Source: Corynebacterium canis (GTDB taxonomy: Bacteria; Actinomycetota; Actinomycetes; Mycobacteriales; Mycobacteriaceae). From it: a DNA stretch of 64,000 nucleotides. The DNA is taken from positions 1,385,247-1,449,246 of the forward strand of contig NZ_CP047080.1 of assembly GCF_030408595.1 (NCBI RefSeq), in the 5' to 3' direction. The first letter of the stretch is position 1. Each line of letters opens with the position of its first letter. This document shows positions 27,172 to 56,684 of this stretch, one piece after another. The notes under the pieces were generated by a model that searched no databases, was not told the DNA's origin, and was given only the letters and a program-made list of their open reading frames with translations. The position numbers were made by a program, and so were the translations under genes.

Positions 27172-27501
27172 ATCTGCCTGGTTTCCTGCCGTGTCAGATG
27201 TGCCTGAGGCAGATGTAACACGGCCGTTTCGCGTTCCTGCGGAAACGCCATCGTGCGACGACCGGCGTGTCGAATCTGCCTGAGGCAGATATAGCGAGGC
27301 GGTTGCGCGGAAAATTCCGGCCTCCACCTCGCCACATCACCTAGTGTGGTGGTGCGGATCTGCCTAGTTTTCCTCCCGCGTCAGATCTGCCTGAGGCAGA
27401 TTCGTCGCGGTCGCGTTTCCCCAGGAAAACTCGGCCCAAAAATCAGGCAGATCCGGCGGAGCGAGGCAGATCGTACATTGCCGAAGAGCGGCCAGGCAGA
27501 T
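27172..27501. repeat. ATCTGCCT/AGGCAGAT repeat unit 1 (A+B)
   Basis: Ten copies of the 8-base motif, including two perfect 17-base palindromes ATCTGCCTGAGGCAGAT at 27274-27290 and 27385-27401. The A part contains CGTTTCGCGTTCCTGCGG; the B part contains CGTTTCCCCAGGAAAACTCG and three closing AGGCAGAT copies (27445, 27464, 27494). The linker includes GGAAAATTCCGGCCT and CCACATCACCT, also found in unit 2. Confidence 0.8.
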
Positions 27502-27633
27502 TGTACGTGGCTGTGTGGTGCGAGTTTCGGTGGTTCGCAATCGATGTCGTTCCAACGTGTTCGAGGCGGCCGTGACTTCTCGCGCGCAACAGTACGTTGC
27601 CCCCAGCGACCTTTTATTGGAGCGGTGATGCGG

Positions 27634-27966
27634 ATCTGCCTGATTTTCCTGCCGTGGCAGATCTGCCTGAGGCAGATGTAACACGGCCGTTTCGCGTTCC
27701 TGCGGAAACGCCACCGAGCGCCGACCTCCGTGTTGAATCTGCCTGGGCGTGAAAAATCATCGGCCCTGAGCACGGAAAATTCCGGCCTTCAACTAGCCAC
27801 ATCACCTGGCGTGGTGTGGAGGATCTGCCTGCCTTTCCACCCGCGCCAGATGTGCCTGAGGCAGATTCATCGCGGGCGCATTTCCCCAGGAAAACTCGGC
27901 CCAAAAATCAGGCAGATCCCGCGGAGCCAGGCAGATCGTGCATTGCCGAAGAGCGGCCAGGCAGAT
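27634..27966. repeat. ATCTGCCT/AGGCAGAT repeat unit 2 (A+B)
   Basis: Second diverged copy of unit 1, in the same order and orientation, with nine motif copies (27634, 27661, 27670, 27737, 27823, 27859, 27910, 27929, 27959). The palindrome ATCTGCCTGAGGCAGAT is at 27661-27677. Many substitutions between units fall outside the 8-mers, while most 8-mers are exact. This suggests that the motif itself is maintained or is the active part. Confidence 0.8.
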
Positions 27967-28204
27967 TGTTCGTGGCCGGGGAAAGGGGGTGCTTCAGCTA
28001 CGGGCAGTTACGGGGTGCTGCGGGCAGACGGAAGTGGCGCGGCTGGCGCGGCGTGAGAATGGGCCGGGGTGTGCCGGGTTTCGGGCTCACCGAACAGTAT
28101 TGAGCTTCACCGTGCCGGTTACAGGGGTGTGGGGCGCGCACCAACGAGACAGGTCGGCGAGCAAGCCCAGGTAGTTGGGGTGCAGCGAGTGATCGCCGTG
28201 AGGA

Positions 28205-48675: not shown

Positions 48676-48755
48676 ACGGCCAGCGTAACCAAACATGAGC
48701 TTTAGTGGTTTGTTCGATATGGTGGGTGCGGTCTGAAATGAAAGGTGTCCAAAGC

Positions 48756-51611
48756 ATGGCTGATCGCCTGATTGTGCGAGGCGCGCGGGAGCATAACCTC
48801 AAGGGCGTTGATATCGATATTCCACGTGACACGATGGTGGTGTTTACCGGGCTTTCGGGGTCGGGGAAATCCTCGTTGGCGTTTGACACCATCTTCGCGG
48901 AAGGGCAGCGGCGGTACGTGGAATCGCTGTCCTCCTATGCCCGCCAATTCCTGGGGCAGATGGATAAACCGGACGTAGATTTCATCGAAGGGTTATCGCC
49001 AGCGGTTTCGATCGACCAAAAATCCACCAACCGCAACCCGCGCTCCACGGTGGGCACCATTACGGAGGTCTACGATTACCTCCGCCTGCTCTATGCCCGC
49101 GCAGGCACCGCCCATTGCCCGGAATGCGACGCCGTGATCGAGCGCCAAACCCCGCAGCAGATCGTGGACCAGATCCTGGCGATGGAGGAGGGCCTGAAGT
49201 TTCAGGTGCTGGCGCCGGTGGTGCGCACCCGCAAGGGCGAATTCGTGGAACTATTTGCCAACCTTGCGGCGCAGGGTTACGCGCGCGTTCGCGTCGACGG
49301 CGAGGTGCATCAGCTGACCAATCCGCCCACCTTGGAAAAGCAGATCAAGCACGATATTGAGGTGGTGGTGGACCGCCTGCAGGTCAAGCCCACGCAGCGC
49401 CAACGGCTCACCGATTCCATCGAAACTGCGTTGCAGCTCGCCGATGGGGTGGTGGAGCTTGATTTCCTCACCTTGCCCGACGATCACCCGCACCGCACGC
49501 GCCGCTTCTCCGAAAAACTCGCCTGCCCGAACGGGCACACCCTGGGCGTGGACGAGCTGGAGCCGCGTTCGTTTTCCTTTAACTCTCCGTACGGCGCCTG
49601 CCCGGCGTGCGATGGCCTGGGTACCCGCCTGGAAGTGGACCTTGACCTGGTGATTCCCGACCCAGACGCGCCGGTATTGGAGGCGATCCAGCCGTGGATG
49701 TCGGGCGCCGGCGAGGGCTATTACCAAAAGCTGCTGGTCGGTTTCGCCGCGGTGATGGGCTTCGATGTAAACACCCCGTTTTCAGAGCTGACGGCCGCGC
49801 AGCGCAAGGCGATCCTGCATGGTTCGCGGCGCAAGGTGAACGTGCAATACACGAATCGTTATGGCCGCACCCGCAATTGGAATTCCGCGTTCGAAGGTGT
49901 GTTGCCCAGCCTGACGCGCCGACTGGAAAACACGGATTCCGACGCCCAAAAGGAACGCCTGCTGAGTTATATGCGCGAGGTCGCCTGCCCGACCTGCCAG
50001 GGGACGCGCCTGAAGCCGGAGATTTTGGCGGTCCGGCTGGCTTCCGAAAGCCATGGCGAACAATCGATCGCAGGTTTGACTCGCATGTCGGTGGAGGAGG
50101 CCTCCGCGTTCCTGGATTCCCTCACCCTTGGTCACCGCGAGGCGATGATCGCGGGCGCGGTGTTGAAAGAGGTCCAGGCGCGGCTGAAGTTCCTGCTGGA
50201 TGTGGGCCTGAATTACCTGTCGCTCGATCGCGCCGCGGGCACGCTGTCCGGCGGTGAGGCGCAGCGCATTCGGCTGGCCACGCAGATCGGCTCCGGCTTG
50301 GCGGGTGTGCTCTATGTGCTCGACGAGCCTTCGATCGGGTTGCACCAGCGCGACAACCAGCGACTCATCGCCACTCTCGAACATTTGCGCGACATTGGCA
50401 ATACCTTGATCGTGGTCGAACACGACGAAGACACGATCAAGGCCGCCGATTGGCTCGTGGATATCGGACCCCGCGCCGGCGAGTTCGGCGGTGAGGTTGT
50501 GTACCAGGGCCCGCCGCGCGGCATCGAAAAGTGCAAAAACTCCATCACCGGCGATTACCTTTCCGGCCGCAAGGTCCTCGGCGTCCCCGCTTCTCGACGC
50601 CCCGCCAACCCCGACCGGCAGCTCCGCATCGTCGGCGCGCGCGAAAACAACCTCCAAGACATCGATGTCGATATTCCTTTGGGCGTGCTGTGTTGCATTA
50701 CCGGCGTTTCGGGGTCCGGGAAATCCACGTTGATTAACCAGATTTTGGCGAAAGTCTTGGCGAATAAGCTTAATCGTTCGCGCCAGGTGCCGGGCAAAAC
50801 CAAGCGCGTGGAGGGTGTCGAACACCTAGACAAATTGGTGCAGGTGGATCAATCGCCGATCGGGCGCACCCCGCGTTCCAACCCCGCGACCTATACCGGT
50901 GTGTTTGATAAGATCCGCACCTTGTTTGCGGAAACCACCGAGGCGAAAGTGCGGGGCTACAAGCCGGGGCGTTTCTCCTTTAACGTCAAGGGTGGGCGTT
51001 GCGAGGCCTGCCACGGCGACGGCACCCTAAAGATCGAAATGAACTTCCTGCCGGATGTGTATGTGCCTTGCGAGGTGTGTGGTGGCGCTCGCTACAATCG
51101 CGAAACCCTCGAAGTTTTGTACAAAGGCAAAAACATCGCACAGGTGTTGGACATGTCCATTAGCGAGGCCGCCGAGTTTTTCGCCCCGATCGGCTCAATC
51201 CACCGCTACCTAAACACCTTGGTGGAAGTCGGTTTGGGTTATGTGCGCTTGGGACAATCCGCGACGACGCTGTCCGGTGGCGAGGCCCAGCGCGTCAAGC
51301 TCGCCTCCGAATTGCACAAGCGTTCCAATGGTCGGACGGTGTACATTCTGGACGAGCCGACCACCGGCCTGCATTTCGAAGACATCCGCAAATTGATGCT
51401 GGTGATCCAGGGGCTCGTGGACAAGGGCAATAGCGTCCTGATCATCGAACACAACCTCGATGTGATCAAGGCTGCGGACTGGATCATCGACATGGGTCCG
51501 GAAGGCGGCGCAGGCGGCGGTACCGTCGTGGCCGCCGGAACCCCCGAAGAGGTCGCCCAGGTTGCGGAGTCCTACACGGGCAACTTCCTGCGGGAGCTAT
51601 TGCCCCGATAG
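48756..51611 (+). CDS. uvrA: Excinuclease ABC subunit UvrA
   Basis: The damage-recognition ATPase of nucleotide excision repair. The 951 residues have two ABC ATPase halves: Walker A GLSGSGKS at 32-39 and GVSGSGKS at 650-657; signatures [14 protein letters not shown] and [15 protein letters not shown]; zinc modules around [17 protein letters not shown] and [17 protein letters not shown] 48756 ([15 protein letters not shown]) is the family start; upstream ATGs at 48738 and the frame from 48705 are leader. The last 89 bases of the gene belong to a 101-base segment that is repeated at 55015-55109. Confidence 0.98.
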
Positions 51612-51623
51612 CTCGCCCACGGC
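51523..51623 (+). repeat. Direct repeat, uvrA 3' tail copy (left)
   Basis: The end of uvrA plus 12 bases beyond its stop. It matches 55015-55109 except for about five substitutions and two small gaps of four and two bases. On the minus strand its distal part also encodes a remnant of the DUF2339 C-terminus (VGELSGQ versus VGELSRQ in the intact gene). Confidence 0.9.
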
Positions 51624-53180
51624 AGCTGCTCGCCGAGCTACCACCTTGAACGCGTGCGTTTCGTGGCGGTTCGGCGGTGGTGTTTGGCTTGGCGGGCGCG
51701 TTTCTGCAGTTTCGCCAGTTGGCAGGGTGGTTTGGCCCACCGTGGCACAGGCGGCACATAGTCTGTGGGTGGTTCTTGGGGCCATTGGTCATCCGGTGGG
51801 GGTTCGGGGTGTGGGGCTTCGGGTAGGGGCGGCAGTTCGGTGGGAATATTGGCAACTAGGTTGTGGCGGGCGAGGTAGCGGGCGCGTTGCCGGTTGCGGT
51901 AGTTGATTAAGGTGGTGCCCCACCGGCCGAAATCCTCCCGGATCGGCGGCTGCTGATAGTCCTCCTCGGTTTTGGTGGGCTGGGCATGGCGGGTGGTAAT
52001 CCCTTCGGGGCAGCCCACCACATGGCCGGCAAGCACCCCCTGTGGAATCGTGGTAATCGTCGCACCGGTGGCAAACCGCCAGGTGACATTGCCGTAGGTA
52101 TCGGTGGAAGCGGTGGCGTGCCGGTCGGTTTTGAAATTGTGGTGATGCCGACACAAACACTGCAGGTTCGACGCGGTGGTCCACCCGCCGACCTCATGGT
52201 TGATCACATGATCAATGTCACAAAAGGTAGCGTCCATGGTGCAGTCCGGGAATCGGCAGGTGCCATCCCGGCCCATGATCAACAAGCGTTGCTCCTCGGT
52301 GGGATCATGCGCAGCCCGCAGCACTTCGGCCACATCGCTAATATTGGTGTAGGCAAGATCCCGGCCGCTGATCCGCTTGCGTTGTTCCCCGGTGAGCAGC
52401 CCCACCCCATGCAGCCGCTCTGGGACCACCTTCGTGGCCTCGGTAAGGGTGCCAAGGCCAAACAGGTGGACGGTACACCCGGCATCCCGCTGCTCCCCAC
52501 TACCGCAAATACGATTGGTGATGATCTCATCTTCCCGCAGGTTCAGCTTTTTCGCCCCCGCGGCCAGGCGTTGTTTAATCTCATGGGCTTCATCACTAGG
52601 TAGGGTCACATTGAGCATACTGACCCCAGCATGCGGGCTTTCCCACAATTCCACCCCACACATCGCCTGAATCCGGGCGGCCATCGCCTCCTCGGTTAAC
52701 GCCTCCTCCGGCGGGGTTTCCTCCACAATATGTAGCCGGATTAGGGTATCGCGCAGCACCTGCCGGATCCGCCGCGTACTCGGCAACGGCTGATTCGCCC
52801 TGGTTGGGGTAAACAACCCCACCAGCACGGTATCGATATCACGCCACACATAGCTTGGGGCATCCAAGGACACGGTCACCAGGGCGAACCAAATCGTCCG
52901 CAACCGCTCATAATTCAAATAATTATGCTCCAGCGCGTGCGCCTTCAACCCGGGCAGGCGCTCATGCAGCAGGAAACACCCACCCACAATGTTATACATC
53001 CGGGCTTCAGAATACGTGCCACTGTGCACCGCGAATTCCTTCACCAACGCGCGGATATTCAACCGGTGCACATCCAACCCAAAGGTCGCCAACAACCAAT
53101 TGTGTAAAAACACCCGATTAGCCTTGAGGTGTCATGATTCTTGTGGTCAGTAAAACCCACATCCTGAGAGGATAGGAATC

Positions 53181-53471
53181 ATGACTTCTAGTTATTCTGA
53201 GCAATTCCGTCAGCAATGTGTTGACGCTGTCATAGTCCTTGGAAAGTCCAGAGCTTCAGTGGCCGCCGAGTACGGCGTGTCTTCGTCGTCGTTGGGCCGG
53301 TGGGTGGCCAAAGCCCAGGGCACACTGGGGACTGGTTCCGGCAGTCACAAACGCGCCGCGGATACTACCTCGGATGATCCGACGCAATTGCGTAAGCGGA
53401 TTATGGAGTTGGAACGCGAGAATGATTTTTTAAAGAAAGCGGCCGCCTTCTTCGCAAAGACGCAACCGTAG
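53181..53471 (+). CDS. IS3-family transposase OrfA
   Basis: A 96-residue protein with an IS3/IS911-type helix-turn-helix (EFRQQCVDAVIVLGKSRASV-like N-terminus ending SSSSLGRWVAKAQ) and a short leucine-zipper helix (LRKRIMELERENDFLKKAAAFF). AGGATAGGA precedes ATG 53181. The slippery heptamer T-TTT-TTA at 53426-53432 allows a -1 shift into orfB, giving a predicted 406-residue OrfAB transposase. Confidence 0.9.
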   Translation: MTSSYSEQFRQQCVDAVIVLGKSRASVAAEYGVSSSSLGRWVAKAQGTLGTGSGSHKRAADTTSDDPTQLRKRIMELERENDFLKKAAAFFAKTQP

Positions 53472-53485
53472 TCGAGATTTATCCG

Positions 53486-54400
53486 GTGATTTTCCATTTC
53501 GATGCATTGGGCACACCAAATCCCCGGTTTCCCGTAACGATGATGTGTCGGCTTTTGGAGGTTTCTACCTCGGGATACTATGCATGGCGGGCTCGGGTGG
53601 ATTGCCCACCAGCACCGGCAACACCACGCGGCCGCAGAGCCCAGATCACCACACACGTCAAGGAACTTTTCCATGGTCACAATGGGTTTGCTGGGGCGCG
53701 CACGATCCATCGACAGCTTCGCCGGGAAGGCATCGCCACAACCCTGTATGCCGTGCGAGTCATCATGTCCCAAGAACATTTGATTACGAAATACCGGCGC
53801 CCATTCAAACGGACAACAATCCCTGATCCAAAGGCTGCTGCCCGCACTGATCTGCTGCAACGGAACTTTCAGCCGCCGGTGGCCACGACGCATCTGTGCG
53901 GCGATATCACCTACCTTCGTACCGGCCAGGGCTGGATGTATCTAGCGACAGTCATCGACCTAACCACTAGGATGGTCGTTGGCTGGCAGATCGCAGATCG
54001 CATGACCTCCCAACTTGTCGTCGATGCACTTGCCATGGCCTATCACGCCGGGTACGTCGCCGGGAACGCCATTTTTCATTCCGATCGCGGCTCCCAATAC
54101 ACCTCTCAACATTTCACCCGCATCGCCGCCCAAATGGATGTACGTTTAAGCGTCGGTGAAACAAGAGTGTGCTGGGACAACGCCGTCGCTGAATCCTTGT
54201 TTTCAACGCTGAAACTCCATCTACTGTTCGACCGAAAACAATTTCCAACCAAATTCGCCGCTCGGTTTGAAACCGGCCAATGGATCGAAACGTACTACAA
54301 CCGGCAACGACCGCACTCAGCCACCGGCACCGTCCCGGCCGATGCCATGCACCAATTCTTCGCCCGCCACAACGACCACCCCCCAAACTCCGCAGCATAA
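53486..54400 (+). CDS. IS3-family transposase OrfB (integrase core)
   Basis: A 304-residue frame from GTG 53486; the same frame is open from 53426, so it is probably produced mainly as the C-terminal part of OrfAB by frameshifting. An HTH_21 segment (HNGFAGARTIHRQLRREGI) precedes the rve core with DDE residues in LCGDITYLRTGQGWMYL, HSDRGSQYTS and WDNAVAESLFSTLK. The tail YYNRQRPHSATGTVPADAM is typical. No internal stops or shifts, so the element may be active. Confidence 0.9.
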   Translation: MIFHFDALGTPNPRFPVTMMCRLLEVSTSGYYAWRARVDCPPAPATPRGRRAQITTHVKELFHGHNGFAGARTIHRQLRREGIATTLYAVRVIMSQEHLITKYRRPFKRTTIPDPKAAARTDLLQRNFQPPVATTHLCGDITYLRTGQGWMYLATVIDLTTRMVVGWQIADRMTSQLVVDALAMAYHAGYVAGNAIFHSDRGSQYTSQHFTRIAAQMDVRLSVGETRVCWDNAVAESLFSTLKLHLLFDRKQFPTKFAARFETGQWIETYYNRQRPHSATGTVPADAMHQFFARHNDHPPNSAA

Positions 54401-54537
54401 CCCCACACAACGAACACAACCGGGTTTTACCGTCCACAAAATTTGACACAGCCCACCTCCAACTCGGCGGCACCAATGAAATTCTGCGGATCATCCACCA
54501 CAAACCCCGCCACCGAATCCACCTGTTGTGCGGTCAT

Positions 54538-55014
54538 TGCCCCGTGTCACCTCCCGAAACCCTTCCCGAACATCTATGTACTGTATAGCCCTTGTTCTAC
54601 CCAGCACGCACACCCGCTACCAGCGCCGAAACCAGGCGAAACACCTTGGCCACAACCGGAACACCACCCCCGCCACACCCTGCCTGACCAGGCAAAACAA
54701 CACCCGAACCCGTGGTGGGCAACACAACACTTGCCCACACCCAAACCATGGTGTAGCACACCCACCACACCCACAAGCACCCGCCACACGCCCCCACACC
54801 CACAAACAGCACACTAGGCACCAAAAACCATCAAACAACGAGCTGAAACCCGCAGCAGAAAACACTATGAGCTTGCCCACAAACCGGAATACACCAACAG
54901 GGGTGAATGAAACCACCCCCACCAGCCATAAAGCGGCGAACCACCGTAACGCTGAGCAGGTTGGCGCCAGTCGGGGCGTCGAAAAGCGACGGAGCCGCGC
55001 CAAACCCTTGTTGC
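54538..55014. other. Cassette flank with strand-asymmetric base composition
   Basis: No gene recognised in the region upstream of the HNH start. 54600-54900 is strikingly rich in C and A on the plus strand (runs of CACC/CCACAC) and poor in T. Open frames here reflect the composition (Thr/Pro/His-rich or Gly/Val-rich) and are not called. It must contain the HNH promoter. Confidence 0.45.
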
Positions 55015-55109
55015 CCGTCGTGGCCGCCGGAACCCCCGAAGAAGTCGCCTAGCGGAGTCCTACACGGGCAACTTCCTGAGAGCTATTGCCGCGATAGCTC
55101 GCCCACGGC
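55015..55109 (+). repeat. Direct repeat, degenerate uvrA 3' tail copy (right)
   Basis: Copy of 51523-51623 with a four-base and a two-base gap that destroy the uvrA frame. Its distal part is the true 3' end of the DUF2339 gene on the other strand (codons GELSRQ-stop). It marks the right edge of the inserted HNH cassette. Confidence 0.88.
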
Positions 55110-56684
55110 CGCCGCGGTCGGTGTTTCTTCCGCTGCGGGTTCGGCGGGCTTCGGCTTGCGGGAGTTGCTGCTGCGGCGCGCGACCGCGATCAGCAAGATG
55201 ATGCCGCACAATAGGAACACCAATGAGCGCGGCAGAAGCGGCAGGATCGGGTAGTCTAATTCGAAGACTTTCAAGGTGCTGGCGGCAATAAACAGCATGG
55301 CCAATTTGATATCGGTCGGGTGCTTGAGTTTGGTGAACCCCGTGAGCACGAGCGCGCCGATGGTCAACCACAGCACGGTCACGAAAACGTGGCTGTATTC
55401 GAATGCCAGGTTGCCGCCCAGGGCCTTGGCCAGCGGCACGAACGAAATCATAAAGGCGTGCAGGCTCAAGGCGAATAGTGCGATGCGGGCGGGCGTGGGC
55501 AGCGGCGCGGGATTACGCAGCGCCCAGACGCACCCGGCGAGGCTCGCCAAGATTGCCACGCCCAGCATCGCTTCCATGGGGGCGGAAAAGAAGCCATCAT
55601 TGTGGGAAAGCGCGGACAAGGTCAACGGGCCGGTAAGGAATAGCGTGGCCAGCGCCCAGCACACCAGCGGGGTAAGCGCCGACTTATTCCGGGCAAACCA
55701 GAAGAAGAAAACGATGCAGCTGGGGAGGAACACCCAGATCGGGGACGGCTGGTCGAAATCGTTCACCAAGAGCATCAGCAATGGCAACGGTGTCACGCTC
55801 CACGCGAAAAGCTGCAGGTTGGCGGTGTCGGGCCGGGGCCGCACGAATTGGGTCAAGGCTACCCACGCCACGCAGAGTGCGAAGGCGGCCCAGCCGCTCA
55901 GGCGGGTGTCGTCCCACAGCGGGCAGGCAACAAAGATCAATATGGCGGGGGCGATACCGCCGCATGCGAGGTAGGTGGTTGTGAGCATGCTGCGATCCCA
56001 GTGCGTCAGCAGGATCAGCGCGGCCGCGAACGTAAGTGCCCATATTTCGCCGGGGAAGGCTGCAGGGCTGAACGGTAGTTCGGCCATGACCAGCCCGAGC
56101 GCAAGTATCGCGGACGCGTGTAGCCGCGTGGTGTCCCAATGCTGCCCAAAGCTTGTGAGCGCGATCAGGAGCACGCCAACTATGGTGCCCGGAAGCGGCA
56201 GGAATTCCGGGGCGAACGTCTGGTATTGCGTCAGAAACGCGAGGAACATATATCCGAGAAGGATGGTGGTTATCGGCGCTTTCCACAGCCTGCCGATGCC
56301 GAAGAAACAGGCGACGAGCAGGGTAAAAGCGGCAGCACCGAGCCAGCCCGGCCACCATTTGTAGATCGCTATCATCGAATAGATCACGAGTGCGAGCGTC
56401 GCGGCGGCGGTCACCAGCACGCCGCTGGTTACCACGGGCAGCGTGCCCCGCATGTGCAGCAGCAACGCGAAGCCCAGGAAGATAAAGCCGAGCAGGGTGG
56501 CGGCGAGCACCCGCATGAGAGGCGTGATAAAGCTTAGGTCCGCGACCAGCGACACTAGGTATCCGGCGCCGACGATCGTGATCACAGCGCCAAAGATCGC
56601 CAAGATTTGGATCACGGTGCGCTCGTTCGCCCACCAGGGTTGCTGTTGCGGCGGTGGCCCCGCGAATTGCTGGTTCGAATTCAT
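55083..56684 (-). CDS. DUF2339 multi-pass membrane protein
   Basis: A 533-residue very hydrophobic protein with about 14 or more predicted helices, beginning QQQPWWANERTVIQILAIFGAVITIVG and ending with a short basic/acidic cytoplasmic tail (RRSSNSRKPKPAEPAAEE). The pattern fits DUF2339 (function unknown; integral membrane). The start ATG overlaps the stop of the upstream paralogue (ATGA). Its last codons lie within the duplicated uvrA-tail repeat, so ancestrally it overlapped uvrA tail-to-tail. Confidence 0.8.
   Translation of the reverse strand: MNSNQQFAGPPPQQQPWWANERTVIQILAIFGAVITIVGAGYLVSLVADLSFITPLMRVLAATLLGFIFLGFALLLHMRGTLPVVTSGVLVTAAATLALVIYSMIAIYKWWPGWLGAAAFTLLVACFFGIGRLWKAPITTILLGYMFLAFLTQYQTFAPEFLPLPGTIVGVLLIALTSFGQHWDTTRLHASAILALGLVMAELPFSPAAFPGEIWALTFAAALILLTHWDRSMLTTTYLACGGIAPAILIFVACPLWDDTRLSGWAAFALCVAWVALTQFVRPRPDTANLQLFAWSVTPLPLLMLLVNDFDQPSPIWVFLPSCIVFFFWFARNKSALTPLVCWALATLFLTGPLTLSALSHNDGFFSAPMEAMLGVAILASLAGCVWALRNPAPLPTPARIALFALSLHAFMISFVPLAKALGGNLAFEYSHVFVTVLWLTIGALVLTGFTKLKHPTDIKLAMLFIAASTLKVFELDYPILPLLPRSLVFLLCGIILLIAVARRSSNSRKPKPAEPAAEETPTAAAVGELSRQ

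Follow-up and report, generated by a model that had tools for sequence, protein, structure and literature searches.

Some integrative elements have their attachment sites in the 3' ends of genes and replace the gene end. The REP13E12/DUF222 HNH repeats of mycobacteria are described as multi-copy dispersed elements (PMC10589994, PMC13061034), and among the papers listed by our literature searches none gave a transposition mechanism for HNH repeats of the REP13E12 type. Long direct repeats are reported for two members of the IS1634/IS1549 family. A 2008 account (PMC2266710), citing Vilei 1999 and Plikaytis 1998 in its passage on these repeats, gives lengths of 8-514 bp for the two members against a family norm of 5-6 bp, and says there that a model of the mechanism had yet to be put forward. 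A Geobacillus member of the IS1634 family is described as having made a 6-bp repeat.

The window, a stretch of 64,000 nucleotides from Corynebacterium canis, contains two copies of the uvrA 3' end on either side of an HNH endonuclease element. This long repeat resembles those that a transposon family resident in the same genome produces, and does not look like a habit of the HNH element. The repeat and the genes that end in it are as follows.

48705-51611, forward strand: uvrA, intact, ending inside the left repeat copy (open reading frame; C-terminus like those of relatives)
51523-51629, no strand: left tail copy, comprising the final 89 nt of uvrA and a further 18 nt (alignment)
55015-55115, no strand: right tail copy, with the uvrA frame lost and the DUF2339 end kept (alignment)
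55083-56684, reverse strand: gene for a DUF2339-like membrane protein, convergent with uvrA (open reading frame; Pfam PF10101 at E 5.6e-6 and 25.9 bits, under the cut-off of 33.6)

In a gapped alignment, the left and right tail copies share 95 of 107 columns (88.8%), with 6 gap columns and 6 substitutions (114 bits, E between 1e-28 and 1e-32). The right copy is 101 bp long against 107 bp for the left, and two indels separate them. The first-pass annotation had placed this repeat at 51523-51623 and 55015-55109, which is correct, and the alignment runs 6 bases past 51623. Its account of what each copy preserves also agrees with the sequence and open reading frames: in the left copy the uvrA frame is intact up to the stop at 51609-51611, with the DUF2339 C-terminus still open, and the right copy, which keeps the DUF2339 end, has lost the uvrA frame via two small deletions. 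Direct repeats of at least 50 nt within 12 kb were sought in the window and in 13 further stretches of the same genome (204 kb, picked around HNH genes); besides the tail repeat, this search detected one pair of paralogous genes, two IS1634 repeats, and repeats of tandem or low-complexity type.

Relatives without the cassette have the arrangement that had been predicted for them. In 18 of 29 loci examined, uvrA and a DUF2339-like gene converge directly, and the two gene ends overlap in 10 of the 17 that are readable. Insertion into a shared uvrA/DUF2339 tail, with the tail duplicated, is therefore well supported by the convergent and often overlapping tails of relatives, together with the repeat. 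The closest uvrA found is only 81% identical, so the empty site is not comparable base by base.

The DNA between the repeat copies is made up of the following parts.

51630-55014, reverse strand: the whole unit, an HNH element carrying an IS3-type insertion inside it (homologous to the seven other copies; ends compared)
51638-53113, reverse strand: bulk of the HNH endonuclease gene, which the IS has separated from its 5' end (open reading frame; weak HNH Pfam matches below cut-off; homology)
53125-54455, forward strand: IS3-type insertion with a target repeat of ~3 nt (Pfam; missing from the seven sister copies)
54456-54537, reverse strand: 5' end of the HNH gene, split off by the IS (alignment to L047-L053; start codon by eye)
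54538-54926, reverse strand: non-coding 5' region of the HNH element, conserved in 8 of 8 copies (alignment)
54927-54997, reverse strand: extension common to copy L053 and partly to L047 and L052, containing the 13-mer GGCGTCGAAAAGC at 54975-54987 (alignment)
54998-55014, no strand: 17 nt at the right junction, unassigned (end comparison)

As first annotated, the copies enclose only the HNH gene with its IS3-type insertion and some DNA then called compositionally odd; most of the last belongs to the HNH element itself, as its conserved non-coding 5' region. The main gene part is 95-96% identical to seven other full-length copies. Transposase reading frames of the IS3-type element match HTH_Tnp_1 and rve in Pfam (53181-53471 and 53486-54400), and the alignment blocks of the seven sister copies, which lack this element, overlap by 3 nt at that point. 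Apart from the nested element, no transposase was seen among the open reading frames and Pfam matches of the HNH unit, whose ends show no inverted match longer than 9 nt. The gap between repeat edges and unit is 0 nt on the left and at most 17 nt on the right.

The cassette is one of eight full-length copies of the HNH element (95-100% protein identity) in a 3.05-Mb genome, where two fragments and six distant relatives bring the family to 16 places. As in dispersed repeats of the REP13E12 type, near-identical copies occupy unrelated loci. All eight have different flanks, and the conserved cognate insertion site of a homing element is not seen among them. Their ends also differ, with three left-tail types and variable right ends. 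The 5' regions of the elements differ by 4.8-9.5% substitutions in 27 of 28 pairs; copies L048 and L051 differ by 0.0% there and by 4.0% in the gene, a contrast that suggests, from the sequences, exchange between HNH copies. A plasmid search found no relative, a phage search gave one partial match, a scan of genome contigs returned 3 loci and PADLOC returned nothing. The HNH protein was modelled with a mean pLDDT of 70 and a pTM of 0.45.

The gene had been labelled DUF222/13E12, which stands as a distant relationship and not as a direct domain match. Pfam PF02720 (DUF222/13E12) has no match in the window piece at E<=10 or in the proteins of seven relatives at E<=1, and a family search of the genome itself was likewise empty. 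Profile-profile comparison, in contrast, relates the family strongly to eight PF02720-bearing proteins that had themselves been found by a search with this HNH family (hhalign probability 99.95%, E 3.9e-38, 296 columns), and the match takes in part of the region ahead of the HNH domain. The HNH domain is present: six of seven relatives exceed the 21.4-bit cut-off of PF01844, and near-identical sister L049 (20.5) and the window piece (18.6) fall just below it.

Five identical copies of an 1802-bp IS1634-family element (341 bits against the NCBIfam IS1634 model, cut-off 100) are found in the same genome, with exact direct repeats of 41, 246, 331, 471 and 698 bp. They look recently active because the copies are identical and the repeats exact. 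Two of the five lie inside HNH copies, and HNH copy L052 has next to it a truncated and diverged relative of IS1634. In other Corynebacterium genomes, repeats of 27-1268 bp flank 7 of 7 listed IS copies in G026 and 3 of 5 in G142, the other two G142 copies having no flanking repeat; with the source genome, this makes 15 of 17. The suggestion that 95-100 bp exceeds transposon target duplications is therefore not supported by the IS1634-family repeats of these three genomes. The tail duplication, at 107/101 bp, falls within their range and is likewise a long direct repeat at an insertion. The unit itself contains neither the transposase nor the terminal inverted repeats of the family: the window has no tblastn match to IS1634 transposase at E<=0.01, no IS1634-type ends were found near either unit junction, and the only DNA match of the IS units to the cassette (32 nt, 78%, E 0.008) lies in the low-complexity 5' region.

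Our preferred reading, held with modest confidence, is that the HNH element was inserted in one event that duplicated a target of ~107 bp, with IS1634-type transposition or one-off break repair as the likeliest agent, and not the HNH enzyme. A copy of the dispersed element would have entered the overlapping uvrA/DUF2339 tails; uvrA would have been preserved by the left copy with upstream DNA, and the DUF2339-like gene by the right copy with downstream DNA. The insertion was presumably tolerated because the duplicated tail kept both genes, whereas an insertion without duplication would have disrupted one of them. IS1634-type long-repeat transposition might have acted in trans or from an IS since lost; break repair with long fill-in is the other candidate agent. 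In favour of the former, the repeat length fits and the elements are present, look recently active and have hit HNH copies. As the cassette holds no IS1634 remnant, transposase or ends, the agent, like the single event and the retention by selection, is one that we infer, and we tie it to IS1634 through the length of the repeat, the occurrence of such elements in the genome and their association with HNH copies.

The age also fits, since the repeat copies differ by 6 substitutions over 101 aligned positions, comparable to the divergence between the elements' 5' regions. Other points in favour are the repeat edges at the unit edges, the convergent relatives, the eight dispersed copies and the long IS1634 repeats. 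Against this reading count the lack of any IS1634 trace in the unit, inverted ends of at most 9 nt, an IS1634 family that does not always make long repeats, sister copies of similar age that lack a comparable repeat, and the distance of the closest uvrA.

A real possibility, if not a probable one, is a one-off illegitimate event, in which incoming HNH DNA with a homologous tail was joined by homology on one side and illegitimately on the other, or a break was repaired with template switching. The varying ends of the element are consistent with such an event, as are the substitutions and indels between the repeat copies, although decay explains that divergence equally well. On this view, the presence of a long-repeat transposition system in the same genome would be an unexplained coincidence. 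It is unlikely that an IS1634-family element came first, making a 107-bp repeat in the uvrA/DUF2339 tail, and was later replaced by the HNH element through recombination. The repeat length and the targeting of HNH copies by this family would suit such a history, but the junctions leave little space for IS ends and no remnant is seen.

We consider it very improbable that the HNH enzyme made two distant nicks or a break, with repair synthesis duplicating the stretch between as the element's normal mode. The unit does encode an HNH protein, the only transposase seen in it is that of the nested element, and the repeat brackets it. However, the seven sister copies have no comparable flanking repeat (at E<=1, direct matches reach 15 nt at most and one inverted match spans 17 nt), in a search that would miss direct repeats below ~11 nt. 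The same holds for all 106 other HNH loci tested (100 from other genomes, 6 from the source genome, drawn from the top of a longer list of hits), where the best flank match is 35.9 bits over 34 nt, against a null maximum of 34.3 in 300 pairs and 114 bits in the window. The 99%-identical pair L055/L056 has no such repeat either. A further test on 47 HNH loci, window included, gave one apparent repeat, at L084, which is an artefact because that locus is truncated. The flanking duplications that the first-pass annotation suggested seeking at other DUF222/HNH genes are thus not found at the loci examined; we rejected an HNH-specific long duplication, and a homing-type mechanism tied to the family is not supported. 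In our preferred reading, the long tail duplication is a property of that one event, not of the HNH family. Least likely of all is a tandem tail duplication with later insertion of the HNH element between the copies, which requires an independent insertion at the duplication junction.

A preference of HNH elements for gene 3' ends was considered and set aside, as tail-to-tail proximity did not differ from background under a like-for-like control: it occurs at 75 of 106 HNH loci (among the matches listed), compared with 29 of 47 (p 0.35) and 79 of 124 (p 0.26) in the two background sets. Overlapping tails are commoner at HNH loci (38 of 106 among the matches listed, compared with 6 of 47, p 0.004, and 29 of 124, p 0.04), by a criterion that also picks up shadow ORFs and with some HNH loci near-orthologous. 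With a home-made gene caller, gaps at 38 HNH loci were 19 convergent, 19 codirectional and 0 divergent (12, 24 and 12 in the window), the script scoring as codirectional L048 and L050, which are convergent by eye. Given the proximity result and these caveats, we claim only that none of 38 HNH genes lies in a promoter gap. Among neighbouring genes, the C-terminus of the LCP protein at L049 is unaltered, thrC at L055 is possibly slightly short, and the permease at L047 had no match in 15 congeners searched.

The 13-mer occurs 288 times in the genome and resembles uptake signals. It is found at the left end of five of eight HNH copies and the right end of two. A role as insertion target or mechanism was dropped because, of 32 HNH loci that are more distant, only 3 carry one nearby, no further than 300 nt from the HNH part that was matched.

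Like integrative elements that target 3' ends, the unit is associated with a duplicated gene end and a gene that stays whole. It differs in that no integrase was seen in it, and the sister copies lack the uvrA tail, which is therefore not an element-borne attachment site. The locus would be a clean case of an insertion that survives in overlapping convergent genes because their shared tail was duplicated.

With REP13E12 the HNH family shares its multi-copy dispersed repeats, the suggested exchange between copies and the profile-profile relation to PF02720-bearing proteins, although it lies below Pfam PF02720 detection. A broader proposal, which we regard as rather doubtful, is a two-partner mobile system. 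In it, transposases of resident IS1634-family elements, or else the same replication-linked process, would move corynebacterial HNH (DUF222-like) elements, seen here without a transposase of their own, and would now and then leave a long direct repeat behind; the IS would in turn land preferentially in HNH copies, as 2 of 5 IS copies have done, and at this locus the repeat would have rescued two overlapping genes.

The likeness to the IS1634/IS1549 family lies in the long, variable-length direct target duplication and in the presence of such elements, with exact repeats, in the source genome; the window unit differs in having no IS1634 transposase or ends and a diverged repeat. Repeats of up to 698 bp in the source genome and 1268 bp in a relative exceed the lengths quoted in the 2008 account for two members and for the family. 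As the IS1634-family copies here are recent and identical, the mechanism of their long repeats is directly testable.

The last 89 nucleotides of uvrA, with 18 nucleotides further on, are found again beyond a unit of ~3.4 kb that consists of a ~2-kb HNH element and an IS3-type insertion:

51523-51629, left copy of the uvrA tail
51630-55014, unit between the copies
53125-54455, IS3-type insertion, recognized by Pfam HTH_Tnp_1 and rve
55015-55115, right copy, 6 substituted positions and 6 gap columns relative to the left

This direct repeat had been claimed in a first-pass annotation, as had the state of its reading frames, and both claims hold. As read from the sequence, the left copy has both an intact uvrA end and the C-terminus of the convergent DUF2339 gene in open frame, and the right copy has the DUF2339 end and a broken uvrA frame. 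The left copy implies that the two genes overlapped by 15 nucleotides before insertion. A simple insertion at this overlap would cut a gene, whereas duplication of the tail keeps both. Self-comparison also detects, elsewhere in the window, a closely spaced pair of direct repeats of ~340 bp with 87% identity (27172-27976).

The uvrA end is present in 198 of 200 congeners, and the best 29 of these 198 loci were examined. As predicted for relatives, 18 of the 29 have a DUF2339-like gene that faces uvrA tail to tail. The predicted shared tail is less general: among the 17 readable convergent loci the tails overlap in 10, but lie 20 to 54 nucleotides apart in 7. In either arrangement an HNH gene has no room in those 17 relatives.

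The HNH protein matches 16 places in its own genome, a single contig of 3,045,310 bp. Eight of these are full-length copies: the one in the window and seven others with 95-96% identity. Six more are relatives with 34-42% identity, and two are fragments, one with 93% and one with 48% identity. At the DNA level the seven sister copies share a core that extends between the HNH 3' end and a point ~390 nucleotides upstream of the start; their flanks are unrelated. Left tails of three types and a variable right end indicate an element without fixed termini. Pairwise divergence is 3.5-6.5% within the gene and, for 27 of 28 pairs, 4.8-9.5% upstream. In the remaining pair, L048 and L051, the 480 upstream nucleotides are identical although the genes differ by 4.0%, a pattern suggestive of gene conversion between them. 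L048 lies at ~68 kb and L051 at ~3014 kb of the contig. At the left junction of L051, the reading frame of a NUDIX-like gene (assigned only by eye) continues into the HNH element and takes its last codons (ALIDAAAGWGVG) and stop from there.

The DUF222/13E12 label given earlier is borne out in part. Pfam DUF222 does not detect the protein, but a profile comparison matches it to PF02720-bearing proteins, and this match takes in some of the sequence that precedes the HNH domain. Relatives are called "HNH endonuclease" or "hypothetical protein" where the source gave names. "REP13E12-like" describes it fairly but does not amount to strict membership.

The first-pass annotation also saw in the long duplication a hint of a homologous or homing-type mechanism linked to the HNH family. 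The other HNH loci examined offer nothing comparable. Flanks of the seven sister copies have no direct match longer than 15 nucleotides at E<=1. A further 106 HNH loci, 6 of this genome and 100 of others, yield at best a flanking direct repeat of 35.9 bits (34 nucleotides), and 300 mismatched pairs reach up to 34.3; the window repeat scores 114 on this scale. Two members of a second HNH subfamily, L055:3704-5472 and L056:3639-5404, are 99% identical over 1.77 kb and represent a recent copy event. One abuts the thrC stop codon, and their flanks contain no comparable long target repeat. Among the loci examined, long duplication is no rule of the HNH element. One HNH gene, in a locus of another genome (L130, G115), has on either side a perfect 19-nucleotide palindrome, ATGTTTCACGTGAAACATT, which resembles a parS site.

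Self-comparison of own-genome loci uncovered two exact repeats, 698 and 246 bp long. Each brackets an 1802-bp element, the same in both cases, that lies within an HNH copy. Its transposase belongs to the IS1634 family (NCBIfam, 341 bits; cut-off 100).

L048:6192-7993, 1802-bp element
L054:5160-6961, 1802-bp element
L242-L246, loci of the element

Five identical copies occur in the genome, with exact direct repeats of 41, 246, 331, 471 and 698 bp. Two of 200 congeners have relatives that pass E 1e-100. Repeats of 27-1268 bp accompany 10 of the 12 copies listed for them: 27-252 bp at 7 of 7 in G026 (one at 98.8% identity, the others exact), and 184, 786 and 1268 bp at 3 of 5 in G142, with none seen at the other two. 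Excerpts of PMC2266710 give 5-6 bp as the family norm, describe long repeats of variable length (8-514 bp) for IS1549 and IS1634, and state that no model had been proposed for these. A Geobacillus member has a 6-bp repeat, according to an excerpt of PMC8024623.

The 107 bp of the window repeat falls within the range found here. Two of the five IS1634-family elements sit within HNH copies, even though the 16 HNH places together cover ~1% of the genome by hand estimate. Next to HNH copy L052 lies a relative of the element that is diverged and truncated. Repeat length, presence in the genome and association with HNH copies point to an IS1634-family agent. This link is indirect, because nothing in the cassette matches an IS1634 transposase, its junctions lack IS1634-type ends, and its own inverted ends do not exceed 9 nucleotides. 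A single repair event is almost as probable an origin of the duplication. One cassette match to the G142 element (32 nucleotides, 78%, E 0.008) is in the low-complexity 5' region of the cassette and was taken as chance.

The 13-mer GCTTWTCGACGCC occurs 288 times in the genome, evenly divided between the strands; the reversed control occurs once. Across 60 other Corynebacterium genomes its count ranges from 0 to 286, and that of the control from 0 to 5. In the window it is found at:

26470, + strand
33327, + strand
40936, - strand
54975, - strand

Of the genomes with at least 10 copies, 36 of 43 have a match to this HNH family at E<=1e-20; below 10 copies the figure is 2 of 17 (p 3e-7, without control for phylogeny). 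ComEC is present in 61 of 61 genomes, and therefore does not explain the variation in count. Among the papers listed in literature searches, none dealt with such a motif in Corynebacterium. The 30 places inspected lie in open coding-like sequence, with some terminator-like inverted places. The motif resembles a DNA-uptake signal, with a placement like that of Haemophilus and Neisseria uptake signals. For H. influenzae, the terminator pairing is described in an excerpt of PMC5217627.
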